A DNA stretch of 61,346 bases, taken from IMG/VR virus record IMGVR_UViG_3300049629_000715, positions 1 through 61,346 of that record. One strand, given 5' to 3'. Made by a program: the position numbers and the translations under genes. The DNA comes from a virus. Shown here one piece after another: positions 3,222 through 49,991 of the stretch (positions are counted from its first letter, which is position 1; every line of letters starts with the position of its first letter). A model generated the notes under the pieces. It saw only the letters and a list, made by a program, of their open reading frames with translations, was not told where the DNA came from and did no database searches.

Positions 3222-3234
3222 CAAAATCAAAACA

Positions 3235-4965: not shown

Positions 4966-5001
4966 CAATCAAACAACAATTAAAATAGAAAAACTAAAAT
5001 T

Positions 5002-9800: not shown

Positions 9801-10547
9801 ACTGGCGAAGGAGAACTCACTTTGGACATTCAAAGATCCATCAGACCATTGCCATCAACATCTATCCGTTGCGAAAAATCTCTATACGAAACAGGGCAAT
9901 CAATCAATGTTAGGGCGGCAAAGGATGATGTTCTTCCGTCAGGATTGTCTGCTGGCGTTTCATATTTTGTTCGCGTAATTTCTGAAAACGCAATCGAGTT
10001 ATACGACACAGAAGCAAACGCCAAAGGTTCTGGAACAACAGGAAGAATTGAATACAGGACTCCCGGAAAAACAACGGGGTCGCAATTCTACATTGACGCG
10101 ATTGATGACGAGGTTCTTGTTAAAACAATTCATCAGATTGAAAAACCTTTAACTGACGGGTTTGTTTCTCTTTACGCATGGGATTTTGGCCGTTCAAATG
10201 ACATGACGCTAATCGGGCAATACCATCCTTCAGAAATCAATCCTCAATATCGAAGAATCAGGGTTGGTGTTCCGAGCGCATGGGTAAGATTGGCATATCG
10301 GATGTCTCCGCCATTCATCACTTCCAAATACGATTACATACCAATTGAACATGAACGGGCAATTATCGCCGCAATTCATGCCGTGGATATGGAGGATAAA
10401 GATTTTGCTGACCAATCAGCGCGATATTGGGGAATTGCATTTAATTATTTGAGGAACCAACAGGAATATATTGACGGACACGCCATGACGACACCGCAAA
10501 TCAATAACATCACATACGGGGATGGAACTGATTGGGTTATTAACTGA
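6804..10547 (+). CDS. Large head-tail adaptor-like structural protein with internal beta repeats, 1247 aa
   Basis: The first about 100 residues (helical, with VFRKISQAVQTLMESGHW) and the last about 150 (helical, with EHERAIIAAIHAVDME and FNYLRNQQEYIDG) resemble the two halves of tail-tubular/head-tail adaptor proteins. Between them lie some 1000 residues of beta modules: four LPxPLxAGxxYxV-type units (near 389, 802, 966, 1047), several GxGYTxxPxVxI units (near 490, 541, 583, 777) and two T-T-A-T-x-T units (about 615-725). T7-type adaptors are about 200 residues, so this one is greatly expanded. It is followed by a nozzle-like gene with a 1-nt overlap. Confidence 0.65.
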   Translation: MFVSQIYEECAEILGTTNSEKVFRKISQAVQTLMESGHWSHSTAEIDICTGWDGQSVTLPRGVDTPLAINVDGSPVYFRNRLFQYHVNKGGKFNPVSWAWDDRGYTPTMMEIREPSQLIAIAETENDVGKQIRVIGINGNNVPLRCQLENGTALDGLLVSIHSMKDFPYGTILPDDQTVETRLVSIDPITKFVNDNGQPHQLDSGEGMNIQNESGVIPIPLYNGQVAYVGILDAITIQLFNDQINAVNGNFPIEMESIVSAGTIKIKDSKPSQVVTAINMYSPVPVPVTTGNPVAFPDTIALLPSPLEKKVTYFANLISNTELDIFESYEDAQNNINPIYVQGPSGIPFPIDIRKELLPETKLTFAIPHYFLQGDQIQCYTAGGTLPNPLIPNQNYFVNVVDPLTITIHETQADAIASSTTNFINPIKIIDAGSGTNYIVKLLSSTFRSGETSQITASGLNIAPPTGSGASFQAVVTGSVRAVQVTAQGNGYATVPGVTFSEPPDPPIGSGQQAEIATGYAIINTFNTKLEQIIITNPGFGYTSPPAITIDPPTGASPQQATASATIQTSFVSYFRKVSGGNNYTQAPQVQITGGGGSGATAQAVVNNTVFNISSISVVGTTATATTSVAHGFNRGSIVTIKNASPSVFLGDKTVLSVPQQNTNITSITRAGTTATVTTAVNHNYSTGQIVTISGVTEVQYNGDYSITVLNSTQFTYVVTGNPTTPAGGASKIASIPLPSGNTFTFTVPSGTTDATIGGTVVSGEVIALNIITSGTGYTSAPSVILTPSTGVFIEFTSTGTLPSPLVAGTAYRAEAPLDTNAGVFTVRNADFSKVNITGGGSGTFYTVLSRSFGVDFTDRWLGDFKNLTTGQEIYFGTDFILPSTSPAIDGSNPFTLEVISPTVAKIKNTALPPVYIQVIAFGVGQSYYGIRRQCTISIPENTIKPDSVRYLQEDEIVRFNTSGSLPAPLIAGVDYKVKIVGDAVRVYTTAGGLITLNSTGEGELTLDIQRSIRPLPSTSIRCEKSLYETGQSINVRAAKDDVLPSGLSAGVSYFVRVISENAIELYDTEANAKGSGTTGRIEYRTPGKTTGSQFYIDAIDDEVLVKTIHQIEKPLTDGFVSLYAWDFGRSNDMTLIGQYHPSEINPQYRRIRVGVPSAWVRLAYRMSPPFITSKYDYIPIEHERAIIAAIHAVDMEDKDFADQSARYWGIAFNYLRNQQEYIDGHAMTTPQINNITYGDGTDWVIN

Positions 10548-12670
10548 TGAAATCCCCGCAAATCACATCAGGCAGAGATGTAAAAGCGACAAGCGGATGG
10601 TTTGCTGGCGTCAATTCGATTAGAAATCCGTGGGCGTTACCAGAAAACCAATTCAAGTGGGGTGTTAATGTTCAAGTCCGAGGCGGAATTGTTCAAACAA
10701 GACCCGGAAATGCAATGAGACTTTCTTTGCCTCCGGGAAATTTCCAAGGCGGAATATTCTTTGCGGCTAACAAACAAAAAAAATCACCTACAACTCAAGA
10801 AATTGATGGCCAAACGCAATTTACAGAGGCTGAAATTTTCGATGTTGAAGGAGGTGGCGTTATAGCGCAAGAATTAAACTACATTGTTTTTGCTGTTGAC
10901 GGAGCCGTTTACTATGCGCCATTTCCTTTGGAACAACCAAAAAATTGGGCAGATCATAAATTAACAAATATCAAACTCGATCCTGATGTTGATCAATTTG
11001 TATTCACTCTGGCAACCCAATCAGCGAACCTTTCAACTGGGAAAAATGAAATCGTCACGCCTTCACATCGTGTCGTTTTTATTCAAGACGGGATTTCAAC
11101 GCCTGCTTATTGGGATGGTTCAAATAAAACTGGAGAACAGTCAAAAAACATACCTACTGGATATTGGATGGCGTTTTCAGGGAATCGTCTTTGGATAGCT
11201 GATAAAAACATCGTATTAGCTTCTGATTTGGGAGACCCGACATCATGGGAAGAAAGAAAAAGCGGAACGGGGAGAGGTGATTTTGCTTTTAGCCGACCGA
11301 TTACCGGATTGGTCAGTTATGTTGGTCAAGACACTTCTACGCGATTGATCGTTTTCACGGATAGATCAACATTTTCTTTGGCGAGCGGCGTCCTCGATAG
11401 GAGCCAATGGACTTCAACAGCAAATTTTCAGAATACGCTGTATCCGACAATCGGTTGCGTTGCTGGCAAAAGTATTACATTTCAAGCTGGTCAAATGTGG
11501 TGGTATTCTCAAGGCGGATTTGTCGCGGCGGACGTTGCGGCGGCATCTTATTTGTCTTCGCAAGTTCTTTTCAAAGATGTCGAGATGGCGCGAAGCAAGC
11601 AATACATGTCTGGTGACATCACAAAAATATGTTGCACTTCATTTGAAAATTACATTCTTGTCAGCATCCCCTATCTGGAAAAATTGAATAGCCAGACAAT
11701 GGTTCTTGATTACGCGGCGGCATCAGAATGGACGCAAGCGCGATCTCCTGCATGGTGTGGTGTTTGGACTGGAACTCGACCTGTTGAATGGGTCAGCGGA
11801 ATTATTGACGGGCAACAGCGTTGTTTTCATTTTAGCGTAGATTATTCTGCGACATCAGACGGGTCTTACAATCATCTTTGGGAATCTTTCGTTCCGCAAA
11901 GATACGATTCTTATTTCGATATAGAATCTGATGGCAGTATTACAGAACAACGCAACAGGATATATTGTTCTATGGAAACCGCCATGCTCGGAGATGGCAT
12001 GGATTACAAACAATTTATCTACTCTGAAGTTGAAACGAAAGAAATAGGCGGGGAGGTTGATATTGCCGTTTCGTTCCGTGGTAGCAAAGGCCAATACAAG
12101 CGGATTCTTTCACAGAAAATTCTTGCAGTTACAGATGACATCCAATGGAAAACAACTCCTTATGCCAAGGAAATTGAAAAACTCGGTTATCTAAAAACGC
12201 AATATCGGCGATTGATTACGGAGTCCGCTCAACGCACGATTGATTATGAAACTTGTGAAAGCGATTATACGATTGATATTGACAAGGCATTTTCAATTTT
12301 GGTTGAATGGTGCGGTCAACTTGGTGTAGAAATCGTCAGAATTTATCTTGATCCATACCCAACAAAAGCACTCGGTGTTCCGCAAAGAAGTGAAACAAAA
12401 CATTGCGTTGTTGGCGACGGCGGGGCAAATATTACTATTGCCAATTTGCCGAATGCGTATGCAGTCGGTGATGGCGTTCAAAAATCTTGGTATGCTACGG
12501 CTTTCAAAACAATATCTGTTCCGTGCGGGCCAACAGGGACAGTTGCGGCAACAGCACAAGCATCGTTTTTGTCATACATCAGTTATTCCCACGCTTACGA
12601 AGAAGCACAAAAACTTGCAGAGCAAGCCGCGACATCGGCGGCGCAACAATACGCGGCAGAGAATTGTTGA
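10547..12670 (+). CDS. Tail nozzle-like (tail tubular protein B-like) structural protein, 707 aa
   Basis: The N-terminus has the pattern WFAGVNSIRNPWALPENQ, then WGVNVQVRGG and TRPG, as in many phage tail proteins that pair with an adaptor. It continues with Trp/Tyr-rich blades (residues about 190-430) compatible with a beta-propeller-like nozzle. The last about 45 residues (SYSHAYEEAQKLAEQA to AAENC) resemble a DUF5977-type Ala/Gln-rich unit. Position directly after the adaptor-like gene mirrors T7 genes 11-12. The family assignment is from memory of sequence patterns. Confidence 0.65.
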   Translation: MKSPQITSGRDVKATSGWFAGVNSIRNPWALPENQFKWGVNVQVRGGIVQTRPGNAMRLSLPPGNFQGGIFFAANKQKKSPTTQEIDGQTQFTEAEIFDVEGGGVIAQELNYIVFAVDGAVYYAPFPLEQPKNWADHKLTNIKLDPDVDQFVFTLATQSANLSTGKNEIVTPSHRVVFIQDGISTPAYWDGSNKTGEQSKNIPTGYWMAFSGNRLWIADKNIVLASDLGDPTSWEERKSGTGRGDFAFSRPITGLVSYVGQDTSTRLIVFTDRSTFSLASGVLDRSQWTSTANFQNTLYPTIGCVAGKSITFQAGQMWWYSQGGFVAADVAAASYLSSQVLFKDVEMARSKQYMSGDITKICCTSFENYILVSIPYLEKLNSQTMVLDYAAASEWTQARSPAWCGVWTGTRPVEWVSGIIDGQQRCFHFSVDYSATSDGSYNHLWESFVPQRYDSYFDIESDGSITEQRNRIYCSMETAMLGDGMDYKQFIYSEVETKEIGGEVDIAVSFRGSKGQYKRILSQKILAVTDDIQWKTTPYAKEIEKLGYLKTQYRRLITESAQRTIDYETCESDYTIDIDKAFSILVEWCGQLGVEIVRIYLDPYPTKALGVPQRSETKHCVVGDGGANITIANLPNAYAVGDGVQKSWYATAFKTISVPCGPTGTVAATAQASFLSYISYSHAYEEAQKLAEQAATSAAQQYAAENC

Positions 12671-13310: not shown

Positions 13311-13320
13311 GAGAAAAATT

Positions 13321-14187
13321 ATGGGAGGAAGTTACCAAGTTCCGACAACCTACAATACAGCGGCAATGTTGCCTCCGCCTGATTCGCAAGGCACATACAA
13401 TATTCTAAAAGCATCGTCGCAGTTGGGTGGCGGAGCGATGGATTTGCATCGCAAAAATGTTGAAATGGCATCCAAGATGCCGCCGATTCGGATGGAGTAT
13501 AATCCTTCGGAACTTTCAAAACAAACAGCGGAATTCGGTGTTGGTAATGTGTTGAGGGAGCGTCAAATTGAATCTTTCACCAATCCTGCGGCGGCAAGAA
13601 TGCGTTTGGATATTGCCGAGCAAATTGAAGAGGCGACTTCTCCAGATGCTTTCAAATCTTTTTTTGATCGGTTCGCTAAAGAGCGTGGAATTTCTTCAAT
13701 AGCTGGTAGCGGGATTGATCCAAACAGCACGATTGGACGATCCGCGATTTATGACGCAACAACGGAAGCTGGCAGGAATTTTCTGTTAGGGAATATCAAC
13801 GCTCGGCAAGGGTTTTTACAGCAAACTCCCGCTCCAATTGGCGGAATTGATCCCGGACAGGCAATTTCCGCGCAGGAAGCCAACAGAGCCGCAAATATCG
13901 GTCAAATGAACGCTTGGCAAGCAGGACAAATGCAGAATGTTTTTGGTCTTGGCCAAGGATACGCTGATTTCGTTAATAAAATGATGGGTGAAACGCTCTC
14001 CGCGAACCAAGCGGAGCAAGCAAATTTGCGTCAATATCAAGAAAAACTCATCAACGATTTGCTTGGGCAAAAAAACGCAGAAAATCAAATGCGAGGAATG
14101 GCGGCGCAAGGCGACCAAGCGATGACTGGCGCTCTTGCTGGCGCGGGAATTGGCGCGGTTGGCTTGATTGCGGCGGCAATGATTTAA
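13321..14187 (+). CDS. Putative internal virion (ejection-type) protein, 288 aa
   Basis: The start has a good ribosome-binding site (TAGGAG) 8-9 nt upstream. The product starts MGGSYQVPTTYN, as do the similarly built MGGS proteins at 15309 and 15888. It is rich in Ala, Gln and Gly with long helical stretches and ends in a hydrophobic segment (MTGALAGAGIGAVGLIAAAMI, about residues 267-288) that could insert into a membrane. Composition, hydrophobic tail and location after the nozzle-like gene fit a protein ejected with DNA. Function is inferred. Confidence 0.55.
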   Translation: MGGSYQVPTTYNTAAMLPPPDSQGTYNILKASSQLGGGAMDLHRKNVEMASKMPPIRMEYNPSELSKQTAEFGVGNVLRERQIESFTNPAAARMRLDIAEQIEEATSPDAFKSFFDRFAKERGISSIAGSGIDPNSTIGRSAIYDATTEAGRNFLLGNINARQGFLQQTPAPIGGIDPGQAISAQEANRAANIGQMNAWQAGQMQNVFGLGQGYADFVNKMMGETLSANQAEQANLRQYQEKLINDLLGQKNAENQMRGMAAQGDQAMTGALAGAGIGAVGLIAAAMI

Positions 14188-14188
14188 T

Positions 14189-15306: not shown

Positions 15307-15308
15307 TT

Positions 15309-15872
15309 ATGGGCGGATCATCATTCGGAAAACAATTTGGCAAGATAACAACTAAAATTGTTGATCCTTTTGGAATTGGCAAAACTAAATTCGGTAAGAC
15401 CGTAATGAAAGTTGTTGATCCATTAAACATAATGGACCCATTGAATGTATTACCCGGAAAAGGTGAGAAATGGGGAACTCTAGATAAAAATTATGGTGGC
15501 CCATTAAGAAAAATGTTTGGCGGAGGCGGCGGAGGAAGCGTCGGATATCACCAACCATACGACTTTAAAGCAATGCAAGGAATGATGCAAAGCGACACAT
15601 CAAATCAGATGATGGGCGATTTGATAACGCAACAGGCAATGGCAAATCAGGCGGCATCTACGCAAACGGCGGCAAATTTACAAGCGGCAAACGCTCAACA
15701 ACAGCAAAACATCAATTCTGCTATGCAAAATTCTCGTCAAAACATGAACAATTTTTTGCTTCGGACGCCAGTTCCATCTACATTTTCAGCAATTACACCA
15801 GCAACCCAAAATAAAACAACTAACAACGCATTCAAAACTCCGAATGTTGCTGGTTTGACATTCGGAAGTTAA
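15309..15872 (+). CDS. Putative internal virion protein with shared C-terminal tag, 187 aa
   Basis: The MGGSSFGKQFG start leads into basic repeats (TKIVDPFGIGKTKFGK, VMKVVDPLN), a poly-Gly run near residue 73 and a long Gln/Ala/Asn-rich helix (about 95-145). It ends N-A-F-K-T-P-N-V-A-G-L-T-F-G-S. The same terminal pattern closes the next two genes. Gln/Ala-rich composition and location fit an ejection-type protein. The terminal motif may be a packaging or docking signal (inference). Confidence 0.6.
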   Translation: MGGSSFGKQFGKITTKIVDPFGIGKTKFGKTVMKVVDPLNIMDPLNVLPGKGEKWGTLDKNYGGPLRKMFGGGGGGSVGYHQPYDFKAMQGMMQSDTSNQMMGDLITQQAMANQAASTQTAANLQAANAQQQQNINSAMQNSRQNMNNFLLRTPVPSTFSAITPATQNKTTNNAFKTPNVAGLTFGS

Positions 15873-15887
15873 TAGAAAGGAAAAATT

Positions 15888-16463
15888 ATGGGAGGATCAG
15901 CCCCAAGAGGACCAAGTCAAAGTCAAATCAATGCGCAAAGAGCGCATGAACAAGCAATGTTGAAGATGCAAATGGATCTTGCTCAACAGCAAATGAAACA
16001 ACAGCAGGATATGCTCAAATATCAAATAGAACAGGCTAATAAACAGCGCATTGCCGCAGAGGAGGCCGCAAAACAGGCGGCAATCCAATCACAATCTGCG
16101 ACAGCACAAAATGCCGCACAACAAAACCTGCAAGATGTCGCTCAAAAAATTGAGGGCATGAATACGATGCAAAATTTGGCTGATCAATCAACATTGGCTG
16201 ATTATCAAAATAGTTTGACAACAGGAGCTGAAAACATGACCGGAGGTTATGATATGGCTAATGCAAAAGAATCTGCTATGCAGAATCTCGGATTGGCTTC
16301 TGGTTCACTTCCGCAAACGCCATCGAATTTGATCGGTTCTTTGTCTGCCGTGAATCCGGCTATGACAACTGCGGCAATAAACACGCAGGCCGGAGGAACA
16401 AAGCAATCGCAAAATCAATTCAGCTTGCCAAATACCAGCGGAATTGTTTTGGGAGGAACATAA
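15888..16463 (+). CDS. Putative internal virion coiled-coil protein with shared C-terminal tag, 191 aa
   Basis: A GAAAGGAAAA sequence precedes the ATG. After MGGSAPRGPSQSQ comes a long Gln/Met/Ala coiled coil (about residues 15-95), then a Ser/Thr-rich tail. The end, N-Q-F-S-L-P-N-T-S-G-I-V-L-G-G-T, matches the terminal tag of the flanking two genes. It is probably a partner of the neighbours in an ejection-protein complex. No enzymatic motif is seen. Confidence 0.6.
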   Translation: MGGSAPRGPSQSQINAQRAHEQAMLKMQMDLAQQQMKQQQDMLKYQIEQANKQRIAAEEAAKQAAIQSQSATAQNAAQQNLQDVAQKIEGMNTMQNLADQSTLADYQNSLTTGAENMTGGYDMANAKESAMQNLGLASGSLPQTPSNLIGSLSAVNPAMTTAAINTQAGGTKQSQNQFSLPNTSGIVLGGT

Positions 16464-16464
16464 T

Positions 16465-17292
16465 ATGGCTGACATTCTAAAAGAAATCGAAGACGCGGGA
16501 AGAAGTACCGACAATGTTGTTGGGCATTTGACTGTTGGAGAAATTGTTATTCCTGTTCAACTCGCAGAAATTCCAGAAGTAAAAAAAGCAATAAAAGCTA
16601 TTTTCCAAGAATACGGAGTTAGCTTGAATGAATTTACGGTGGGAAATTCTGAAAATAAGATCAATCCTGAAACTGGATATCCGGAATTTTTCTTTAAAAA
16701 AGCTTGGAACGCTGTTAAAAAAGTAGTTTCAGGAGCTGGTAAAGCTGTTAGCAATACAGTGAAGAATGTTAGTAAAGTTGTTACAGGTAAATCTAAACCC
16801 AAAGCTCCTAAAACCACAACTCCTGCCGCGACAAGCACAACGCAAGAAGATTTGCAAAAACAATTGGATCAGGGGAAAAAAGATTTTAAGAAGACGATGG
16901 CTGGCCTGAAAAAACAAGATGAAGATAACAGAATAAAAGCTGAAAAAGACGCAAAAGATCGAGCTATTGCCGAAGAATCTGCAAGAGCAAGAGGTCTTGC
17001 CGCGACAAATCAACAGGAAATAGCAACACAACTTGATCAAGCTCTTTCAAAACCTTTGATTCAAGATGTCGTCACAAATGCTCCTCAATATAGTCCGAGC
17101 GGATTTGGTGCTGATATGCCAAAAAAAGCTGTTCCGGGAGCTGGCGGAGGGCCAACCCCTTCTGAAACAGCCGCGACAATGCCAGCGGGTCTTTTGGCGC
17201 AAAAAATCAATCAAGACAGCGGCGGAACAAATATGGCGACTAATCGTTTCAATATCCCAAATGTAGAAGGTCTTCAATTCGGAGGCTCGTAA
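16465..17292 (+). CDS. Putative internal virion protein with HLTVGEIVIP domain and shared C-terminal tag, 275 aa
   Basis: The ATG at 16465 is favoured over one 21 nt upstream that overlaps the preceding stop. The N-terminal about 75 residues contain GHLTVGEIVIPVQLAEI, GVSLNEFTVG and INPETGYPEFF, a module I recognise from uncharacterised virion proteins of many phages. Next come an amphipathic Lys/Val helix (KAWNAVKKVVSGAGKAVSNT), a Pro/Thr linker and a charged coiled coil. The last residues, N-R-F-N-I-P-N-V-E-G-L-Q-F-G-G-S, carry the tag shared with the two upstream genes. The basic amphipathic helix could bind membrane. Confidence 0.65.
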   Translation: MADILKEIEDAGRSTDNVVGHLTVGEIVIPVQLAEIPEVKKAIKAIFQEYGVSLNEFTVGNSENKINPETGYPEFFFKKAWNAVKKVVSGAGKAVSNTVKNVSKVVTGKSKPKAPKTTTPAATSTTQEDLQKQLDQGKKDFKKTMAGLKKQDEDNRIKAEKDAKDRAIAEESARARGLAATNQQEIATQLDQALSKPLIQDVVTNAPQYSPSGFGADMPKKAVPGAGGGPTPSETAATMPAGLLAQKINQDSGGTNMATNRFNIPNVEGLQFGGS

Positions 17293-17295
17293 TTT

Positions 17296-19005
17296 ATGAC
17301 TAACGCTGGCTATAATTTTTCATACACTCCTAAACCATCATCCGCATTAGCAAATCTGAATCCGATTTCACTCGGCGAAGGATTAAGATTTCAAGCTGAC
17401 GCGCCGATGAAATTCATTGAACAGCGGCCAGAGGTCGTGATGGAAGGAATTTTGAAAGGTCGCCAGCAAATGGCTGAATCTATTACAGAAGGAGCCTTAT
17501 CCGCTCTTGGTAATATAACGGGAGCGTTCAAAGAGGAACGGCAAGCCAAAAAAGAAGCTCAAGAAAAAGCGGATCAACGAGAGCATGAATTAACGATTTG
17601 GGATAAACGCGTCACAGCCGTTAAGCCTGAAAATGAACGCGACATTCTTTACGATAACCTTCGGAATCAACTTACAGAACAAAAGTTGTTGGAGATGGAA
17701 AATCGGGTGAATGCCGTAACGCCAACTGCTGTTCGTGAAAAAGGATATTTTTCTAGTGATCCAGTAGATATTCCGATTGAGGATATGCCGAAGAGTTTAG
17801 ATGAGGAGAAAAAACAATCTTCCTTGATGAATTTGCAGACTCCAATTCCTAACATTGCGTCTAATGAGCCTGCTCCAATTTTATCGAACATCAACGACAT
17901 TTCAGCCTTTGCGCCTCCTGTTGACGGATACTCATTGGCTGGCGTTAGTGCGCCTAAAACTGCCGACCGAATTTTCCCTACAAGTGAAGGTCAGGTTAAT
18001 TTTGGCGGCGAGACATTTGAATTAGAGCGAGTCAGCGGAGCAGAAGGGGTTCCTACTCTTGCTTCTACTCCTGCGCCGCCACCAACCAAAGCTCCTGTTT
18101 CAAAACAGCAAGCGGAACAATCTCGCTTGACTCCTTCTCCTGCGGAGTTCGTTGATAAAGTAACTGGTCAACCAGAATCAAAGAAAAGACAGCCAACCGC
18201 GTATGAAATTGAACAATACTACGCTGGCGAGCCATACGGCAGTCTTGCTGACGCTAATTTTGCCAAACGCGAAATGGGCAAATTAGGATATAAAACTAAA
18301 GTTACGCCAATCGAAGACCCGACAAGCAAAAAGCGCATCTATTATGTGGAATACGAGCAAGCTGGCGAGGAACCAACAAAAGGGTTAAGAATGGTTGAAG
18401 CCACGGAAAAAGATGGCGTAATAACCAAGAAATACGAGCCGGAAATCGCTCCTAAAAAGAAAATATCAGCATTAGATAGCGGTCAATTTCAGTTAGAGGC
18501 AATGGTAAAATCTATCAATGATATTAAAAAATTGCAAACCGAAGGATATTTACCAGAAACTGGAAAATTCTCATCATATCTTGCAAAACTTCCTGTCACA
18601 ACAGACGCTTCAAGGACACGAGGATTTTTGAAACCTATTCTGGCTAATGCCGCTTTCAAAGCAATTACAGAAATGCGTCAAGCAAGCCCCACGGGGGCGG
18701 CAGTTGGTGGTGTTTCGGATAAAGATTTGGAACTATTGATGAATACCATGGGGGCAATCGATCCAGACAATCTTGATGATCCGTATTTCACAGAAAATCT
18801 TAATAAGATTGCAGAACTTGCACAAAGAACTCTTTCTGGCATTCAGAATGACAAAGTTGCAATCTTGAAACAGGTAAAATCGCAAGGAGAAGAAATAGAT
18901 GGAATTCCTCTTGTTGAAAATCAAGCAGAATATGATGCTGTTCGTAAAGGGCGGCAGTATTACGGGTTGAAAACTGGCCAACTAAAACTTTTTACTAAAG
19001 AATAA
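17296..19005 (+). CDS. Putative internal virion protein, 569 aa
   Basis: This is a long, mostly hydrophilic protein. An N-terminal stretch with helix (MKFIEQRPEVVMEGILKGRQQMAESI) leads to a coiled coil (about 85-130), a Pro/Ala-rich linker (about 245-290) and a helical C-terminal domain (about 385-569). It lacks the terminal tag of the three genes before it. It directly precedes the giant polyvalent gene (2-nt gap). Role as ejection or core protein is inferred from order and composition. Confidence 0.5.
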   Translation: MTNAGYNFSYTPKPSSALANLNPISLGEGLRFQADAPMKFIEQRPEVVMEGILKGRQQMAESITEGALSALGNITGAFKEERQAKKEAQEKADQREHELTIWDKRVTAVKPENERDILYDNLRNQLTEQKLLEMENRVNAVTPTAVREKGYFSSDPVDIPIEDMPKSLDEEKKQSSLMNLQTPIPNIASNEPAPILSNINDISAFAPPVDGYSLAGVSAPKTADRIFPTSEGQVNFGGETFELERVSGAEGVPTLASTPAPPPTKAPVSKQQAEQSRLTPSPAEFVDKVTGQPESKKRQPTAYEIEQYYAGEPYGSLADANFAKREMGKLGYKTKVTPIEDPTSKKRIYYVEYEQAGEEPTKGLRMVEATEKDGVITKKYEPEIAPKKKISALDSGQFQLEAMVKSINDIKKLQTEGYLPETGKFSSYLAKLPVTTDASRTRGFLKPILANAAFKAITEMRQASPTGAAVGGVSDKDLELLMNTMGAIDPDNLDDPYFTENLNKIAELAQRTLSGIQNDKVAILKQVKSQGEEIDGIPLVENQAEYDAVRKGRQYYGLKTGQLKLFTKE

Positions 19006-19007
19006 TA

Positions 19008-22000
19008 ATGATTTCATGGGAACCGCCAGAAAAGGACAAAGAATCGAAACTTGAAGATGAGGCTTGGACTCCGCCAGATAAAGATCAAGAATCGACGATT
19101 ACTGCACAAGCAACTTCACAATGGACGCCTCCGGTTAAAGATGATCCAGACGATCTGGCGAACATAAAAGACCCGTTAAAGCTCAATTCGCTTAAACAAT
19201 CTGGTCAGCCGTTAAGCGAGGAGCAGGAAAGAATTGTTTTTGATTGGGAGGATGAAAAGCCAATCTCCCAAAGGGCGAGTGAATTTACCGCAAAAGCGAT
19301 TCCTGCGGCGGCAACGAGCCTCGCAGATATAGCTGTTGGTGGCGCAGAGTTTGGTTACAAAGGCATCTTGATGCCAGCCCAAGACATTCTGACTGGTGGG
19401 CTGTATTATTCGCCGGAAGAAAGAGCAAAAATCTGGCGCGAACAGAATTTATCAACAAGAGCATTGGCTTCTGGAGGCGCGCAAGGTCTTGATGAAGCTA
19501 TCGAAGCGGGAACTCGATTGGCAATTTACGGATCGTCGATTACCGATAAAATTCAAGGTTTGCCAAAAGAACAGCGATTCCGACGATACATGTCTCGGGA
19601 GACGATGCGGAAATTCGCTCAAGCCGCACGGGATGAAACTCCCGATACGCTCGCAAGGCTTGCCGCTGAAAGTCCGTTGATACAAAAGATGGTGACAACC
19701 ATCGTCGGAATGCAGGGAGCCGATCCAGAAGCGCAAAAAGTGGCTGTCGAGGAATACGAAAAATTGGTCAAAGAAAGCGGGTTGACCAAAGAGGAATTAG
19801 AAGAATTCAGGAAAATTGTAAATTTCGGTGATGTCAAAATGCCGACCTCTATTCCCGGAGCAAATACGGTGACTGCGGCTATTTCCAAGCCATTGACAGC
19901 GGCGACACGCAAAGCTGGTGAAGTTACCTTGAAAGGTTTGAATCTCGGAAGCAGGGCGACTGGCTGGACTGCTGGTAAAACGATTAAAGGCGGTGAGTGG
20001 GTTCAGCAAAAATCCAAAGACATCGGGCAGTATGCCGTAAATGATCCAGACACTTTTGTTAAAACAGCAACAAATACGCTGTTGGCTCCCGTCATGCTCG
20101 TTGCGAAGCCGACGAAAAGTGTTGCTGATGTAATAACTGACATCACTCGCCAAGTTGATAAAGGCGGAGCCGCTGGCCGAAAGGGAATGATCCAAAGGGC
20201 AGGAGAAGATATTCGCTCATCTGAATTGACTCGGAAACTTTTCGGGCGCGAAGGCAAAGGTGGCGTTGGTCGCGCTAGAGTTGCTGATTGGGCTATCAGG
20301 CAATCAAACGCAATGATTCAGCCCGGAGTTAGTTCGGGAACATTGAATGTTCTGATGGGATTGCCTGATGCCGAAACTGCGGCGCAAGCAGGACAACAAT
20401 TCGGCACGGGATTTGGCATGGGAGCATACGCCGGAAGCCGTGTTGAATCGCGTGTTGGCGGATTGATTGATCCACGGACAACGATGGCGCAGAAAATATC
20501 GAATCTTGTTACTCCTGACCCAACGCAGTTGCGCCGAGATCAAGACGCCGACATTAAAAGATTCATGGCTTCCGCTTCTCCTGAATTGGTTGGCCAAATG
20601 AAAGATTTGGCAAGTATTGATAAGCGGAAAGTTGCTGTTGATACAAGAATTTCTGAATTGGAAGAAATTCAAGCCAGAATGATCAACGAAGAGGATTCTG
20701 CATTTATTCAAAAACAGATTGATGGCTTAAAAAAACAAAAGGAAGCTCTCGCTAAATCTACGCCGGAAACTCAACGCGAATACGATCGATTGGTTCAACT
20801 AACAACGCTCGACATTATGGATCAGGCAAAATCAGTCGGATTGGCGGCTGGATTGCGCGGATTGAACTTGGTTTTCCTTGATCCAAAAAACGCAGAACAA
20901 TTCTACCGAAATCTGTATGGTCAGAATTTGATTGACGCTGAAAAAGCCATGGCTGTTCTCAAAAACAAGCCATTCATGACGCCTGATGAGGAAAACACCT
21001 TACGGCTGGCTAACGAAACGATGTCTTCGTTTTATCAAGATGTTCAGAATTTGGAAAATAGCCGAGGCATTTCTGTTCGGGAAAGCATCACTGATCCAGA
21101 AAGTCCAGATTTCGTTCCTTCGCATTTGCGCTATTTGAATCAACAAGGCGCAACGGCTGTTATCAATATGGACTTGGTGAAACACCTGACTAATCAGGGA
21201 TTCAATCTTCGCCATACCATGCAACATGAGGTGCAACATGCTTTGGAGAACTTCAAAGAAGTGCAGGACTTGATGGCTCCATTGCGCAAATATCTTTTTG
21301 ATCAAAAAGTAAAAACTCCAGATGGCGGAGTTGAAGTTGTTAGCAATGGCATATTCGACGATGAAAAACTTGACGCTTACGCGATGGTTTATGGCGATAG
21401 GTTTTCCCCGCAAGATGGAGGAGCAAGTTTCGTCGCTCAATTCGGCGGAGACATTGAAAAACAACGGAACTATATCAAACGCGAGATTCTTTCCGAGATT
21501 GCGGCTGTTGCGGGAGAATATCAAAGCGGAAGCAGGGCGGTTCTTGATGATGTCGGAAGAAAGGCTATCGACTGGCTGGAAGTGAAAACCCGTGACGGAT
21601 ACCTGAAGAAACTTAAAGAGGGGTTGCGTAAGGCTGGTGTCGTGTTTGACAAAACAGGCGGGTATTCTGAATTGCTTGACGCGAAACTTACGCCAGAGGT
21701 TCTCGCGGCTGTTCGTGAATATCAGAGGGGCGTTCGTGATATTAACGGAGCATTGACATATAATTCCGATATTGAGGCCGAGGAACCAGACATTCCAATC
21801 ACAAAAATTTTAGGTAATAGGGCATTGCAGGAAAAATATAAGGAAGTCGCCCCATTTGAGCTTGAGCCAGTAGTAAAGGTGACTCAACCAGACGGATCAA
21901 TCTCTGAAATCAAAGTTCCCGAGGGCGCAAATCTTGATTCATTAGTTGGGGTGTATCGCATCAAGGACGGAAAATTCATTGATGAGGACGGGAACGAAAT

Positions 22001-25000
22001 GGTTCTTGCGCCAGAAATCAACATCAGCGCAATGCCTGACGGAACGCAATTTCAAATCAATACCCGCATTGCGAGAAAACCTGATGGTAGCCCGATAACA
22101 ATTAGTAATCGGGAAATGAAACGCAGGGCTGTAGATCGCACGAAAATGATCATCGACGCGGTTAATTCTGCGCCTAAAGACGATTCCCCATATAGAATGA
22201 TTGATATTGGAAATGGGAATTATAGCGGGGCAATGTCGCCAAGCCAAGTTGAGGCATTAAGGAAAATCCCTAATCTTATCCTTTCACCAAACCTGAAACG
22301 CAAAATTGAGTTTCTAAATGACATTTTGCGCCGTGGTGACGGAACTCGCGTTATGATGGAATATCAAGCGTCATTGTTAAACGGAAAGTATCAGGCATTG
22401 TCCCCAAAACTCCGTGATGAGGTTCCTATTGGGTTTAAGATAACAAAAGACGGCAACTTTACGCTGACAACGATGTCTGTAAGCCGGATGCACGATAAAA
22501 TGAACGCATGGGCGTCAAATAAGCCAATGCGATTGCAGGCATGGGGTGGGGATACTGGGAAATTTTGGGATTCACTTATCAAATATCTCGACAACCACGC
22601 GCAAGGCAAACATGGCGAAGAAGGATTAGACCCTGACCCGTATATTGCGCTTCGCAAGAAATATGCAATCAACGATCTTTTCAATGTCTATAATGCAGAG
22701 ACAAAAGCGGCGAACCCTGAAAGAACAACACTTCCACGGCAAAAGGGAAAAGACCCTATAGATATTATCGTCCGATCAAGAAGGCTGGATCGCATCAATG
22801 ATTATAGCGAAATGAGCGCGCAAAAGTTGCCAATGAACTACGGCAAACTTCGGGACAATTACATGCCGGAAATCAATCCGCTTGCGCGTCCGCAATCGCC
22901 AGAAGACATGATGGCAAATCTTGATGGTAGCGTGACGGCAACAAGAATCCGCCAAGCCATCGCCAGCGGCAATGTGGAGCAACTGGAGTCCGAATTGCGG
23001 ATGAGTGATGACTTGCTCCCATTTGAATCATTGTATGTGTCACAGGGCGAAACTGGAGAACCGCAGATTCAGGTTGTATCCATGCTTGATCCGGGAATCG
23101 AGCCAAGCGTAGAGCGTTCTGAAATCCCAACAGACATTGATGCGGAAACAGAAGCTGAAATGGCTCGTTTGGATTCTGAATATGACATGGCAGAAATGGG
23201 CCAACAGGGCCAACAGGGCCAACTGGAACAACAACAGGGTCAACAGGGCCAACTGGAACAACAAAAGGGTCAACAGGATCAACAGGGCCAACAGGTGCCA
23301 ATGGCTCGCGCTGAATTCATTCCTTCTCAAGCTCAATACATGCCTGCTTTTAATTCAGATGAATACGGGTTAGAAGAAGGCCAAGAAGCGGAAAATCGTT
23401 TAACACCAAGAACGCTTTACAACCTTTATTATATCGCAACAGAACCAGAACCAACATCGGAATATGGCCGCGAAATCACAAATCAATACATAAATAAATA
23501 CAAAAACTTGTATGTTGATGTTTTTTCAAATTTAGTTCGCCAACAAATTGAAAAATACATTGGGAGAGGTCGCGTTGATTCCAATGTTACTAAAAAAGCT
23601 CTCGATAAAGCTGACACTCCCGCAATGCTTGATGAATTGATGCGGGGAACTTATCGGAGTGACATGCGGAGACGCAACGATGTTTGGAATACTGTTACCG
23701 AGCATTTGAAAAATCTCTCTGCCGCGACAACAAAGAAAGATAAAATTTTTTATATGGATCGCCTGAATAATTCGATTCATAACACGCAGGAGCTTCTTTT
23801 CAGCAAATTCAGCAATTATAGACAACTGCAAGAAGCATTTGATTCAATTCATAATGCGCGTGACACGCGAGCTTACTCGCAACGAGTCGATAAAGATTTG
23901 CGTGAATTTAACTCTTTCAGAGGAACGCAATACATGCCGCAAGTGCCAGCCGTAAATCAATACGGATTCTACTCTCGCCTTGAGGAAGGTATTCGCAACG
24001 CAAACCAGCAAACATTCTCGCCAGAGCAAGCAAAGGCTCTTGCTTTGAAATCCACAAACAAAGAGGAATTGAAGTGGTCTGGAATTGAAAATGCCATCAA
24101 CAATATCGCAGAAGAAAACAACGGCAAAGTTCCAAAGCAAGCATTGTTAGATTACATGGCAGACGAGGGGAAAGTTCAGTTTGAAGAAACCAATTTAGCA
24201 AAATTCAATCGCTCAGAGGAAATTGCTAAAAAATACGGAATTACTTTAGAAATAACGCAAGAGGAAGTTCTCGCGTGGGATAAAGATAATGAAAGTTTGG
24301 AGTGGGATGAATTCCCAGAAGAACTAAAGCAGGAATTGCTTCGCACTCAAAATATGCAGGAATATAAATATGCTAAATATCAACTTCCCGGAGGGCAAAA
24401 TTATCGTGAAGTTGTCTTGACGATGCCTGAAAAAGAAGCCGGAACAAAACAATACACTTATGATGATATAATTTTAACAAAAGGAAAATCTAATTGGAAG
24501 TTTAAAACAAAAGATGGTGTTGTGAGTGGTTCAATACCCGGAGGGTTATATCCTGAAGAAATTGCTCGTGATTACGCTTTGCAAATGGCGCAAACATCGG
24601 AATCTACACTTAAAAAACCTTCTGGAGAAAAATCAACATATACAAGTTCTCACTTCGCAAACATTCCAAACTATGTAGCGCATATGCGCTTGAATGAACG
24701 CACAGATGCCGAAGGCAACGATGGCTTGTTTATTGAAGAGATCCAGTCTGACAGGCATCAGCAGGGCAGGGAGAAAGGATATGCAGAGGAAAAAGAAGTA
24801 ACAGCAAAATTGGTCCCATTTAAGTACCCAAATGGCTTCATTGAATATTATTATCATATATATGATCCTAAAACAGACAAGCCAATACTTCGAGATAATG
24901 GCGAGCCTGTTACTCTTGCAAAAGGATTTGGCAAACAGCAAAGATCAGAGCAAGATGCAATTAGAATATATAAAGAAAGTGTTGCCAATCTTGTTCCAGA

Positions 25001-28000
25001 CGCACCATTTCGCAAAGATTGGCCACTGCAAATGTTCAAGCGTGCATTGCGTGATGCTGTTGAATCTGGAAAGAAATGGATCGGGTGGACTGATGGAGAA
25101 ACGCAAGCTGATCGGTATGACTTGAGTCAACAAGTAAGTGAAATAATTGCATGGCCTGTCGGAGAAGAAGGCGCATTTAAGTTTGTTGACAATAAAGACG
25201 CCAAAAAAATGTTTGTGACAGTGCGAGGACTTAAAGGAAACACAATTTTTGAACAAGCGGTTGAAAAGGGAAAACTATCTGATCTTGTTGGAAAAGATTT
25301 GGCAAATAAAATGATTTCTCAAATCGGATCAGAATCAGTAACATACTCAGGCCCAAATCTCAAAATCGGCGGCGAAGGCATGAAAGAATTCTACGACACC
25401 ATCCTTCGTAACAAACTTGGCGAGTATGTAGACAAGATGGGTGGGAAAGTTGAGAAGTCTAAAATTCAAACGGGTAAAAAATACGACTTTGAATTATTTA
25501 ACCCTGAAGGAGAACCAAAAGGCGTGTTTGTTCTCCGAGATCGAATGACAGGTAAATTTTTGGCAGATAGTGAAAAAGAAACTTTTTTATCTCGCGCAGA
25601 AGATGGAGAACTAATGTCTCAAAAAGTTGCAGAGTCAATGATTGAGGCATTTTCTAAAGATACTGAAACCCCAATCTGGCGAGTAAACATCACGCCAGAA
25701 ATGCAAAAATCGGTTCGCGCTGGGCAACCGCAATACATGCCATATATCCCATATTCTATGCCGAAAGATCCTCGGCAGATTATGGCGGATTTCTATTTGC
25801 TAACGACTGTTGGCGACATCGCAAAGAGTGCGGGAGAAAACTGGCGCATTGCTTTCGATCCAGAAAGAACAACGATTCAAGGAAAAGCAACTGATCTACA
25901 AAAGCTTCTGACATTGCCAACACGCCAAGGTCTGAACTACGAAAAATACGGACAGAATCTTGAAGACGCAGTTCAGAAACTCACGCAGGGAATGAAGAAG
26001 CACATGCTGGATTCTCTCTTGTTTTCGATTTCGGCAGAACTTCGCCACTATAAAGCAAATCGTCAGCCAGAGGAATTGTTGGATAATCCTTTCATGAAGG
26101 CGTATTCCAAGATTTACGATGCTTACGACGCTGTTGCAGACAAAAATCTTCCTGAATACGCACAAAAATACTTAAAGCCAATGTATCCAGAAACGCCGAG
26201 GGCGAGGATTTCAAAAGGTAGCAGAAAAAGTTATCAGCTTTCAAATGCGGCAGTAAGAAAAGCATTTGAGGAAACAGGAATATCAATTTCAGAATTCGCT
26301 GATATAGCAGAAAAATTATTTCGAGAAGGAAATTGGAATAAACAATTTGGCGGAGAAAATTGGGGGAATATTGCCGCAGGATTGCAAATGGTTGATCAAG
26401 CCAACGATCCTGAATCTCTCATTAAAGCTCTTGATAACGCTTACGATCTTCAACACAATACGGGAGTTGTATTTGATAAAATTCAAAAATATGCTCGCGA
26501 AGGCGGTTATCAATGGTTGCAGGACATGTTGGATTTCAAATATCACGCCGGAAGCCCACGGGAATTTGCGTCTTTGGCAAGTTCTGCGGCGAAACGGATC
26601 ACCGCGCCAGCATTGATTGATATTGGTGATATCGCAATAGATAAACGCCGAGAGAACGCAGTTGCGGTTGCTGGTGAAGATACAATTTCAGATATTGAGG
26701 ATCAGATTCGCCGACTAAAACCGAACAGAGAGAACATATATCAAGACATCAATGTTAAGGCTCCGAAATATACTGGCAAAGACATCAACGAAGAATTGCA
26801 AAAATGGCTCGTAAATACAACGACATCGGGATTCTCGCAGACACCGAATAAATTGAAAAAGCTCGGAGTGAATTCAGATGTCATTCAATATGTAAGATTG
26901 CTTTTAGCGCAAAAGATGGCTCCGAAATGGAATGTTCCGCAAGACATTAAGGAAATGGTGTCAAAATCAGTTGCGAAATCTAAAGCGAAAAATCAAACAG
27001 AAGTAGAATATGGGCCTCCGATTGGAATTCCTGAAAAATCAAATCTTGCAAAAGTTCCCGCGCCAGTAAAGGAAGGGGGAAATATCATTCCTGCTGATAT
27101 TGGTGAATTGAAACAACAGATTCACAAATTGATGCACCTGCACACGGAATCAGATATTGGAACGATGGTTCCGTATAAAGGATTGATGTTTTCTGGAATG
27201 AAGAATATCCCCGCAAATACTTTCACGATTAAAATTTACAAAGACGGAACTAAAATTGATGAAGCAACTTTCAATCTGAAATCGCCTGTCTATGATAATT
27301 CCGTATACGCATATCTTTACTATAATACGCCAGTAAAAGAACAAACAAAAGCAGAAAATCTTGCTGATCTCGCATTGCCTTCTCAAGATATAAAATGGAC
27401 TCCTGTTTATAGCGGAAAAGGAGAATATGTTAATTTTGTGAATGGAGATGAACCAATCTCAACGGATATGACAGCATACTTCGATGGGAAGCCATTATTT
27501 GCTGAATTTATATTAGACGGAGATGCTTTGCATATCAAAACAGAAAAAGGAGACGATTATTCAATTCCTTTTTCACATGAATCAAGCGCAGACGCAAAAT
27601 CTTCTTTCATTCAACAAATGCTTGGAAAATATACAGATATTGTTAGCGATATAAAAGAATACGAAGGAATAGATTTATCTTTCACTCCGCCAAAACCAGC
27701 TTCTTTAGCACAAACAAAAGCCCCATCATCCGAGCCTTCTTTGTCACCAGATTTTAGGCCTGTCGCAATGACGATAGAACAACTGAAACAGTTAATCGTA
27801 AATCCGAAGACAGGAGAAATCTCAACACAACCGCTGAAAATTCTGATTAATACAGAGTTGAATTATTTTCCGGAAGAAAAAAAGAGTGGATTGGCTATAT
27901 GGGGAACGAAATACGCAGAATGGGCAAAGAAAGCTTCTGCCGAGGAACTATGGCCGTCTGTTACCGGAAAGCCATATGAAGATGTTGCATCCCAAAAGTC

Positions 28001-28925
28001 ACAGTCGCTGAAATCCGAGGATCAAGCTATTGCTGACTACAAAGATTACAAAAAATTCAAATACGACCAATGGTATGCCGATCAATCGAAGAAATTAAAA
28101 GAGAAGCTACCTGATGAAGTCGTTAAAACGATATTGGATTTTGCTTGGGTTCAAACTGACACAGGTTCCACTATTCCGACAGTAGAAGAAGTGTTCCAAA
28201 AAGTTAAAAACAAATTAGGCAATCTTCTTTTATCAACGGATGACATAAAACTTTTGAATGAATCTATCGATTCTGCAATCGGAGAAGCGGCAAAAGGAAT
28301 GTTTTCTGTAAATCCAACATCATTAGAGAAAATTCCGAGTTTCATGAATTCGCAAAAAGTAATGGAATTATATGAAGCGGTAAAAGCGGGAATCTCTTGG
28401 GATGACACGGAAGGCGGAGAATCGATTTCTGACAATCTTGAAGAATTAAATCTTTCTGAACTCTCTGATGAGAATATCGAAGAACTCAAGAAATGGTATA
28501 ACTCGGTTCTGGATTACGAGAACGAGAAAAAAGAATTCTACGGGGAATTTAAAGAGGAAACGAACGAGCAGAAAAACGCTGAAACTGATCCGGAGGTTGA
28601 TTATTACAAAAAAGCGTTCAATGAATTCGTAAATTACGACTGGAAAGAATTGTCATCTGGGCCAGAATTTGCGAAAGATTTAGTTGAATATCTATTCGGC
28701 TCCAAAGATTTTGATTTTGCGATGAATAGAACCATTTCAGTTGGGAGAAAATTTTTAGTTCCTTACGCTCCCGGAGGAGACAAAGTTTATATTCTTCACG
28801 GCAAAGATCAGAATATAGATGGTAGCGTGATTTTTGATATGTCGAAAAAGACAAAAGAGCAGACCAAACAAGAGATGATTGATTGGGTTGCGCATTTCAT
28901 CGATTACTACGATCCTAAAATCTGA
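19008..28925 (+). CDS. Giant polyvalent virion protein with HEXXH protease motif, 3305 aa
   Basis: This single gene is about 16% of the genome. Early residues have short repeats (WxPPxKDxES) and helices. Around 740-744 lies H-E-V-Q-H, a zinc-peptidase HEXXH motif, with a later E in REILSEIAA as possible third ligand. A Gln/Gly-rich linker spans about 1395-1435. Residues about 1900-2050 (LFIEEIQSDRHQQGR, then FRKDWPLQMFKRALR and WTDGETQADRYDL) match a domain I know from large polyvalent proteins of phages. QYMP occurs at 1443, 1641 and 2242, at apparent domain boundaries. It is probably ejected into the host with DNA and may be cut into pieces. Confidence 0.75.
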   Translation: MISWEPPEKDKESKLEDEAWTPPDKDQESTITAQATSQWTPPVKDDPDDLANIKDPLKLNSLKQSGQPLSEEQERIVFDWEDEKPISQRASEFTAKAIPAAATSLADIAVGGAEFGYKGILMPAQDILTGGLYYSPEERAKIWREQNLSTRALASGGAQGLDEAIEAGTRLAIYGSSITDKIQGLPKEQRFRRYMSRETMRKFAQAARDETPDTLARLAAESPLIQKMVTTIVGMQGADPEAQKVAVEEYEKLVKESGLTKEELEEFRKIVNFGDVKMPTSIPGANTVTAAISKPLTAATRKAGEVTLKGLNLGSRATGWTAGKTIKGGEWVQQKSKDIGQYAVNDPDTFVKTATNTLLAPVMLVAKPTKSVADVITDITRQVDKGGAAGRKGMIQRAGEDIRSSELTRKLFGREGKGGVGRARVADWAIRQSNAMIQPGVSSGTLNVLMGLPDAETAAQAGQQFGTGFGMGAYAGSRVESRVGGLIDPRTTMAQKISNLVTPDPTQLRRDQDADIKRFMASASPELVGQMKDLASIDKRKVAVDTRISELEEIQARMINEEDSAFIQKQIDGLKKQKEALAKSTPETQREYDRLVQLTTLDIMDQAKSVGLAAGLRGLNLVFLDPKNAEQFYRNLYGQNLIDAEKAMAVLKNKPFMTPDEENTLRLANETMSSFYQDVQNLENSRGISVRESITDPESPDFVPSHLRYLNQQGATAVINMDLVKHLTNQGFNLRHTMQHEVQHALENFKEVQDLMAPLRKYLFDQKVKTPDGGVEVVSNGIFDDEKLDAYAMVYGDRFSPQDGGASFVAQFGGDIEKQRNYIKREILSEIAAVAGEYQSGSRAVLDDVGRKAIDWLEVKTRDGYLKKLKEGLRKAGVVFDKTGGYSELLDAKLTPEVLAAVREYQRGVRDINGALTYNSDIEAEEPDIPITKILGNRALQEKYKEVAPFELEPVVKVTQPDGSISEIKVPEGANLDSLVGVYRIKDGKFIDEDGNEMVLAPEINISAMPDGTQFQINTRIARKPDGSPITISNREMKRRAVDRTKMIIDAVNSAPKDDSPYRMIDIGNGNYSGAMSPSQVEALRKIPNLILSPNLKRKIEFLNDILRRGDGTRVMMEYQASLLNGKYQALSPKLRDEVPIGFKITKDGNFTLTTMSVSRMHDKMNAWASNKPMRLQAWGGDTGKFWDSLIKYLDNHAQGKHGEEGLDPDPYIALRKKYAINDLFNVYNAETKAANPERTTLPRQKGKDPIDIIVRSRRLDRINDYSEMSAQKLPMNYGKLRDNYMPEINPLARPQSPEDMMANLDGSVTATRIRQAIASGNVEQLESELRMSDDLLPFESLYVSQGETGEPQIQVVSMLDPGIEPSVERSEIPTDIDAETEAEMARLDSEYDMAEMGQQGQQGQLEQQQGQQGQLEQQKGQQDQQGQQVPMARAEFIPSQAQYMPAFNSDEYGLEEGQEAENRLTPRTLYNLYYIATEPEPTSEYGREITNQYINKYKNLYVDVFSNLVRQQIEKYIGRGRVDSNVTKKALDKADTPAMLDELMRGTYRSDMRRRNDVWNTVTEHLKNLSAATTKKDKIFYMDRLNNSIHNTQELLFSKFSNYRQLQEAFDSIHNARDTRAYSQRVDKDLREFNSFRGTQYMPQVPAVNQYGFYSRLEEGIRNANQQTFSPEQAKALALKSTNKEELKWSGIENAINNIAEENNGKVPKQALLDYMADEGKVQFEETNLAKFNRSEEIAKKYGITLEITQEEVLAWDKDNESLEWDEFPEELKQELLRTQNMQEYKYAKYQLPGGQNYREVVLTMPEKEAGTKQYTYDDIILTKGKSNWKFKTKDGVVSGSIPGGLYPEEIARDYALQMAQTSESTLKKPSGEKSTYTSSHFANIPNYVAHMRLNERTDAEGNDGLFIEEIQSDRHQQGREKGYAEEKEVTAKLVPFKYPNGFIEYYYHIYDPKTDKPILRDNGEPVTLAKGFGKQQRSEQDAIRIYKESVANLVPDAPFRKDWPLQMFKRALRDAVESGKKWIGWTDGETQADRYDLSQQVSEIIAWPVGEEGAFKFVDNKDAKKMFVTVRGLKGNTIFEQAVEKGKLSDLVGKDLANKMISQIGSESVTYSGPNLKIGGEGMKEFYDTILRNKLGEYVDKMGGKVEKSKIQTGKKYDFELFNPEGEPKGVFVLRDRMTGKFLADSEKETFLSRAEDGELMSQKVAESMIEAFSKDTETPIWRVNITPEMQKSVRAGQPQYMPYIPYSMPKDPRQIMADFYLLTTVGDIAKSAGENWRIAFDPERTTIQGKATDLQKLLTLPTRQGLNYEKYGQNLEDAVQKLTQGMKKHMLDSLLFSISAELRHYKANRQPEELLDNPFMKAYSKIYDAYDAVADKNLPEYAQKYLKPMYPETPRARISKGSRKSYQLSNAAVRKAFEETGISISEFADIAEKLFREGNWNKQFGGENWGNIAAGLQMVDQANDPESLIKALDNAYDLQHNTGVVFDKIQKYAREGGYQWLQDMLDFKYHAGSPREFASLASSAAKRITAPALIDIGDIAIDKRRENAVAVAGEDTISDIEDQIRRLKPNRENIYQDINVKAPKYTGKDINEELQKWLVNTTTSGFSQTPNKLKKLGVNSDVIQYVRLLLAQKMAPKWNVPQDIKEMVSKSVAKSKAKNQTEVEYGPPIGIPEKSNLAKVPAPVKEGGNIIPADIGELKQQIHKLMHLHTESDIGTMVPYKGLMFSGMKNIPANTFTIKIYKDGTKIDEATFNLKSPVYDNSVYAYLYYNTPVKEQTKAENLADLALPSQDIKWTPVYSGKGEYVNFVNGDEPISTDMTAYFDGKPLFAEFILDGDALHIKTEKGDDYSIPFSHESSADAKSSFIQQMLGKYTDIVSDIKEYEGIDLSFTPPKPASLAQTKAPSSEPSLSPDFRPVAMTIEQLKQLIVNPKTGEISTQPLKILINTELNYFPEEKKSGLAIWGTKYAEWAKKASAEELWPSVTGKPYEDVASQKSQSLKSEDQAIADYKDYKKFKYDQWYADQSKKLKEKLPDEVVKTILDFAWVQTDTGSTIPTVEEVFQKVKNKLGNLLLSTDDIKLLNESIDSAIGEAAKGMFSVNPTSLEKIPSFMNSQKVMELYEAVKAGISWDDTEGGESISDNLEELNLSELSDENIEELKKWYNSVLDYENEKKEFYGEFKEETNEQKNAETDPEVDYYKKAFNEFVNYDWKELSSGPEFAKDLVEYLFGSKDFDFAMNRTISVGRKFLVPYAPGGDKVYILHGKDQNIDGSVIFDMSKKTKEQTKQEMIDWVAHFIDYYDPKI

Positions 28926-49412: not shown

Positions 49413-49991
49413 ATGGCTAAACCAATTTGGGGCATGGTCCCTCCGGGGGGATGGCATTATCAGGACGGCGATGTTACGCTTGAAGGCTGGAGCCTTGATA
49501 ATCTTTACGATGTTGTTAGGAACTATCGCGCTGAAAACAATCTTCCGCTTGGCGATGTTGTTGGAGATGTTAATTCTTTCGTTTGTGGTAATTTCCCAAA
49601 TTATTGTCATGGCGTTGATATGGTTGTTGTTACCAGCGTCGAACAGCCGAACCAGCAAACAGAACTTCTTACAGATATTACAGTTTGGGCAAAGAATACC
49701 CTCACAACCAACAAGCGAATTGATTTCGTCACGGATGAATTGGCTGAAGCGAGAGCCAAGGTCTGCGCCAAATGTCCAAAGAATGTGAAATGGCGTAGTG
49801 GGTGCCAATCCTGCATAACAGCAACGGAACGGCTATCTGTAAGCATACGGCAAGCGCGGGAAACAAAAACCTCGCGTTCTTTGGGAGGCTGTTCTATAAT
49901 GCGCCACGACAACCGGAGTGCTGTGTTTTTCGACAAAAACAATTTTAACAAACCGCAAAACTTGCCAGCAAAATGCTGGCTGAATCAATAA
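49413..49991 (+). CDS. Hypothetical Cys-rich phage protein, 192 aa
   Basis: The N-terminal part begins W-x-M-V-P-P-G-G-W-H-Y (about residues 6-16) and has a YRAENNLPLGDV block, while the C-terminal half has CAKC, GCQSC (about 118-135), a GGC near 158 and an unpaired Cys near the end. I recall this architecture in uncharacterised phage proteins found upstream of the portal. The cysteines suggest metal binding. It overlaps the portal start by 1 nt. Confidence 0.65.
   Translation: MAKPIWGMVPPGGWHYQDGDVTLEGWSLDNLYDVVRNYRAENNLPLGDVVGDVNSFVCGNFPNYCHGVDMVVVTSVEQPNQQTELLTDITVWAKNTLTTNKRIDFVTDELAEARAKVCAKCPKNVKWRSGCQSCITATERLSVSIRQARETKTSRSLGGCSIMRHDNRSAVFFDKNNFNKPQNLPAKCWLNQ

Follow-up and report, generated by a model that had tools for sequence, protein, structure and literature searches.

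How podoviruses choose the ejection proteins that are packed into their heads is poorly understood, and a short sequence shared by the ends of neighbouring genes offers a way into this problem. In the window (the whole stretch of 61,346 nucleotides that was analysed), three adjacent plus-strand genes whose products otherwise differ have a common C-terminus, NxFxxPNxxG[LI]x[FL]G[GS], hereafter the tag. What could such an ending do, and how far does it extend beyond this one genome? The three genes and their tags are the following.

15309..15872, + strand: tagged protein 1, 187 aa, MGGS start, body cluster 11
15825..15869, + strand: C-terminal tag 1, NAFKTPNVAGLTFGS, end of tagged protein 1
15888..16463, + strand: tagged protein 2, 191 aa, MGGS start, body cluster 0, family-wide member
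16413..16460, + strand: C-terminal tag 2, NQFSLPNTSGIVLGGT, end of tagged protein 2
16465..17292, + strand: tagged protein 3, 275 aa from the ATG at 16465, MADI start, body cluster 14
17242..17289, + strand: C-terminal tag 3, NRFNIPNVEGLQFGGS, end of tagged protein 3

The preliminary description of this DNA had claimed a single motif at the ends of three consecutive genes; all three termini match it, and a relaxed form of the motif, searched in six frames over the whole 61 kb window, has no match beyond these three gene ends. The bodies were said to be otherwise different, and this holds by BLAST among the three proteins, which gives E values of 0.8-4.7 once the last 16 residues are removed. 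The MGGS start reported for the genes at 13321, 15309 and 15888 is likewise present in the translations, while the third tagged gene begins with MADI and not with MGG.

Body cluster 11, to which tagged protein 1 belongs, is syntenic and occurs in 18 loci, and every complete member listed ends in the tag or a close variant. Body cluster 0 (the 15888 type) is found in 93 of 100 loci, and in its family alignment conservation is highest at the MGG start, at the tag and in a few columns near the middle. For the 15888 protein, AF2 predicts a long helix (residues 11-112) followed by a low-confidence tail that bears the tag; this tail is presumably disordered, and a tag placed on a disordered tail after a helix is as expected of a short linear motif. 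Tagged protein 3 provides an example of a body that changes under a kept tag, as its N-terminal HLTVGEIVIP module is restricted, in the surveyed set, to the window genome and two near relatives, and other genomes carry a part related to its C-terminal region without this module.

When 2.9 million viral contigs were scanned with a degenerate DNA pattern of the tag core, 16 stretches were recovered, two of which are chance matches outside the family described here. The pattern for tag plus stop recovered 84 IMG/VR stretches, all from one uncultured phage family with genomes of ~60 kb (83 carry at least two core family genes and the remaining one carries one). The 134 tagged proteins are mostly about 120-280 aa long and 117 of them have an MGG start. 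Across bacterial and archaeal genomes (GTDB, 257 billion bases) the tag-core pattern gave 51 hits, with no MGG-start protein ending in the tag; these hits are taken as chance and serve as a negative control.

Within this family, the tagged genes lie in a block with a recurrent gene order: a 6804-type tail gene, the nozzle-like gene (10547), small genes, an MGG gene of the 13321 type, a PAPS-reductase-like gene, further MGG genes, the tagged genes, the 569-aa gene and the giant gene. In the window the main untagged members are as follows.

10547..12670, + strand: nozzle-like tail protein, 707 aa, putative nozzle, anchor of the tag-blind survey
13321..14187, + strand: MGGS-start protein, 288 aa, untagged, conserved in synteny (cluster 2)
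17296..19005, + strand: 569-aa protein, cluster 1, untagged, next after the tagged array in most loci
19008..28925, + strand: giant 3305-aa protein, cluster 8, putatively ejected

Six of 13 members of the nozzle-like family match phrog_511 'internal virion protein', weakly (best 8e-8). The 13321 protein ends in a hydrophobic C-terminus, GALAGAGIGAVGLIAAAMI, with no tag, and its AF2 model is of low confidence (mean pLDDT 49.8). The giant protein, a probable ejected protein, contains a Q/G-rich stretch of low complexity and, at residue 740, a single HExxH motif, and no Pfam domain was found in it. The PAPS-reductase-like gene (14189-15154) sits within the structural block and is present in 63 of 100 loci; it is overlapped by 124 nt, in another frame, by a gene of the CxxCxxCC zinc/iron-chelating type (15031-15306). 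When the MGG-start block is defined as 12933-19005 in the window and as the equivalent block in the 68 family genomes, MGG occurs near the start of 195 of the 465 ORFs that lie inside the block and reach at least 100 aa, against 0 of 479 outside it. As this block-confined start is also found on MGG genes that lack the tag (clusters 2 and 9), MGG may be a second, N-terminal mark of the block proteins.

Because a search based on the tag would find only what was sought, loci were also gathered through the nozzle-like protein alone, independently of the tag. At least one tagged gene was present in 30/30 loci of the first tag-blind set that had sufficient downstream sequence, and the strict tag was present in 62 of the 68 genomes of the combined dereplicated set. 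Among these 62 genomes, 29 have one tagged gene, 21 have two, 10 have three and 2 have four, and in the other six an MGG protein ends in a variant ([FL]GGx), such as NQIMPSTQGITFGGS or NTIQPTNQGKQFGGY. Consecutive tagged pairs are directly adjacent in 44 of 47 cases, with gaps of 2-85 nt, mostly 2-5 nt. In the first anchored set, the tag ends 82 of 566 ORFs within 7 kb downstream of the nozzle-like gene, compared with 0 of 1200 ORFs from other parts of these loci and 0 of 751 from bacterial control loci, which excludes chance as the source of the tag. In all of 24 long contigs (49-94 kb) the tag is confined to the block, bar one chance match that contains a stop, and the reversed pattern has no match across these contigs. 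The nozzle-like proteins are mostly 55-85% identical to the window copy (44% for one partial copy). The observation made on three genes is correct and broader than first described, since the tag is family-wide and marks sets of one to four neighbouring genes. As judged from these comparisons, the tag is an ancient signature, private to one family of uncultured phages of ~60 kb. INPHARED contained no match to the proteins of this family, and PHROGs, Pfam and PDB contained almost none. The near and remote INPHARED searches covered the N-terminal module of gene 3 as well as the terminase and the tagged, nozzle-like, portal-like and coat-like proteins. For the tagged proteins, PHROGs, Pfam, PDB and INPHARED yielded no relative whose function is known, and our literature search found no described shared C-terminal motif of this kind.

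The 77 distinct tags of the tag-blind set have the consensus N-x-[FY]-x-[LMV]-P-[SNQK]-x-x-[GDN]-[LI]-[TKQ]-[FL]-G-G-x-COOH, in which the search expression itself imposes P and the first terminal G; among residues that the search did not require, the leading N is present in 62 of the 77 and the second G in 73. F stands 14 residues before the stop in 126 of the 134 tagged proteins and 13 or 15 residues before it in the rest (14 in 83 of 90 in the tag-blind set). Synonymous codons vary freely at the fixed residues, including third positions at P, G and F; this points to selection on the protein as what keeps the tag. Tags within a genome are no more alike than tags from different genomes (p 0.31), and there is thus no sign of co-evolution with a genome-specific receptor.

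By BLAST the 134 tagged proteins fall into 14 body families, and the part played by duplication can be read from these bodies. In the window, the bodies of genes 2 and 3 are similar in a shuffled-alignment test (z 12.5, a value that low complexity could inflate) and, on this comparison, the two genes may be old paralogues; the body of gene 1 has no similarity to gene 2 or 3 in the same test (z about 2). For 24 of 63 within-genome tagged pairs, window genes 2 and 3 among them, body similarity is above the shuffled background (z at least 5, which low complexity may again inflate), and several bodies share GGTxQxxN immediately upstream of the tag. Both findings would suit the view that the shared end is a mere residue of gene duplication, without function. 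Against it, the bodies of the other 39 pairs are not detectably similar and their tags still share a mean of 7.3 of 14 positions, the codons differ, and the tag has been kept across the deep divergence seen in the nozzle-like proteins; we regard this view as largely refuted and give it hardly any weight. The preliminary description had said that its proposal would fall if the motif were absent from homologues or a by-product of recent duplication, and what we found was neither, the tag being family-wide and differently encoded from copy to copy. With similar bodies in some pairs and dissimilar ones in most, duplication took part and yet the end outlasted the bodies; so, from the sequences compared, duplication appears to have helped to spread an end that was kept while the bodies diverged or were replaced.

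The probable head genes of the window are the following.

49973..52417, + strand: probable portal-like protein, 814 aa, role from position and size
53414..54658, + strand: scaffold-like protein, 414 aa, between the portal-like and coat-like genes, role from position and composition
57882..59093, + strand: probable major capsid (coat-like) protein, 403 aa, role from position and conservation

Of the proteins examined, the coat-like one is the best conserved, its full-length matches being 68-96% identical, and coat- and portal-like proteins together are 63-96% identical across contigs, again in full-length matches. No relative of either was found in INPHARED or PDB, nor of the scaffold-like protein in PDB, and the three have at most weak single PHROG matches. 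The only anchors for structural annotation are the terminase (phrog_2), the tail fibres and the weak phrog_511 match of the nozzle-like family, and we infer head and tail assignments mostly from position. The region 1338-6138 holds a pair of tail fibre genes with collagen repeats and, after them, an S74-chaperone tail spike gene (5002-6138). Glycosyltransferase-like genes are present at 41006-42142, 48497-49408 and 54743-55762; one of them matches beta-glucosyl-HMC-alpha-glucosyltransferase (8.8e-49), a similarity that hints at modified DNA or glycosylated virions.

The tag looks like a docking label that gathers proteins with different bodies into one particle or complex. Its place at the extreme C-terminus, the flexible tails and the exchangeable bodies make a docking motif for a common receptor the best reading, and we put at about even the chance that the tag brings internal, ejected proteins into the virion through one shared site. 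The last ~16 residues would then be a short linear motif bound by one common site in the assembling virion, most likely in the head interior, at the portal vertex or on a core or ejectosome component. Through it, between one and four small proteins, mostly helical or disordered and forming a modular set, would be recruited into the particle as internal proteins destined for ejection; the 15888-type protein is the member found in nearly all genomes, and the others are exchangeable, so that the body can change and the tag stay. That the tagged proteins are virion components, that they have one common receptor and that the tag serves recruitment are what we infer from this arrangement. More tentatively, and with a chance of perhaps one in three, the tag could be a general loading code, such that any small protein gaining it would be packaged in the head and from there reach the host; if so, the set of injected proteins could be read from C-termini and would be exchangeable between phages.

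Three other readings give the tag a different partner or moment of action. The tagged proteins could bind each other, the 569-aa protein or the giant protein, the tag being an ejectosome contact and not a packaging signal; the adjacency of the tagged genes, followed by those for the 569-aa and giant proteins, is in keeping with this, as are the stacked complexes formed by podoviral ejection proteins (PMC8954989). The number and identity of the partners, however, vary from one to four and some genomes have a single tagged gene, which suits independent binding better than a fixed stoichiometry. We consider such a contact, whether made before or after ejection, rather unlikely, at about one chance in four. 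Less probable still, at some one in ten, is a role in head assembly, as scaffold or core factors; the tagged proteins would then bind the coat through the tag and be gone before maturation. Herpesvirus and P22 scaffolds bind the coat through C-terminal segments, and a long helix, a disordered tail and a conserved C-terminal segment are a usual layout of a scaffold, which the modelled helix and tail with its conserved end resemble. The family nevertheless has a distinct conserved scaffold-like gene, which is located between those for the portal-like and coat-like proteins and has a C-terminal motif of its own (DRxKMSxxDAIDLGLDEA); this makes a scaffold role for the tagged proteins less likely. 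The tagged genes, too, belong to the tail/ejection block, at a long distance from the coat gene.

The preliminary description had left open a docking, a packaging or a processing signal; docking or packaging fits best, and processing is the part that fares worst. A protease or C-terminal modifying enzyme acting at the GG-x end, for processing or turnover, would find a GG end in 73 of the 77 distinct tags, usually with one variable residue after it and superficially like GG-terminated proteins, and many genomes encode the PAPS-reductase-like enzyme in the block. Conservation nevertheless reaches 14 residues upstream, the terminal residue varies freely and leaves little to cleave, the tag runs up to the stop with a constant spacing, and GG is missing in some members (GS, GK, GEGR). 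No protease was recognised by PHROGs/Pfam among the genes scanned, nor any activating enzyme, and we judge processing very improbable.

A recognisable tag on exchangeable proteins would predict which proteins are packaged and would point to a single receptor. Its 16 residues can serve as a bait peptide, it identifies a large family of uncultured phages outside the reference libraries searched, and, being family-wide, it makes the choice of head-packed ejection proteins a testable question.

Docking by a C-terminal peptide can be compared with three known systems. Podoviruses keep their internal and ejection proteins between the genes for a nozzle-like protein and a very large protein, and the tagged block, between the nozzle-like gene and the giant, therefore has the position of such proteins. 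The term 'ejection-type' used in the preliminary description rests on this position and on analogy with T7 and P22. We know of no shared terminal tag in the T7 or P22 ejection proteins. Like T7 gp14/15/16 and P22 gp7/16/20, the tagged proteins follow a nozzle-like gene, precede a very large protein, and are small, helical and of low complexity; the tagged families have no sequence match to T7, P22 or N4 ejection proteins. The review of podoviral ejection proteins used for this comparison of gene positions was PMC8954989.

In T4, the internal proteins are diverse and only their targeting sequence is conserved (PMC3012670, PMC5694885). This CTS, found on the internal proteins and Alt, is a short terminal sequence common to highly diverse small head proteins. 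Sharing among different bodies is seen here on proteins that are putatively internal: 14 body families are tagged and 33 of the 68 tag-blind genomes have two to four tagged genes. The T4 CTS is, however, N-terminal, 10-20 residues long and removed by the gp21 protease, whereas the family tag, a putative packaging signal, is C-terminal and unrelated in sequence, with no protease seen; it is not a member of the CTS class. Encapsulin cargo is brought into an HK97-type shell by a C-terminal loading peptide (PMC8346489), again a short C-terminal peptide on otherwise unrelated proteins, and the family tag is likewise such a peptide on a flexible tail, here a predicted one. Encapsulins are not phages, their motif differs (TVGSL is cited in PMC8346489) and binding of the tag to a shell is here putative; the window genome is that of a phage with terminase and tail genes, so that the tag is not an encapsulin loading peptide. 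The T4 CTS and the encapsulin peptides are nonetheless the closest working parallels for a tag that would dock unrelated proteins at one shared site.
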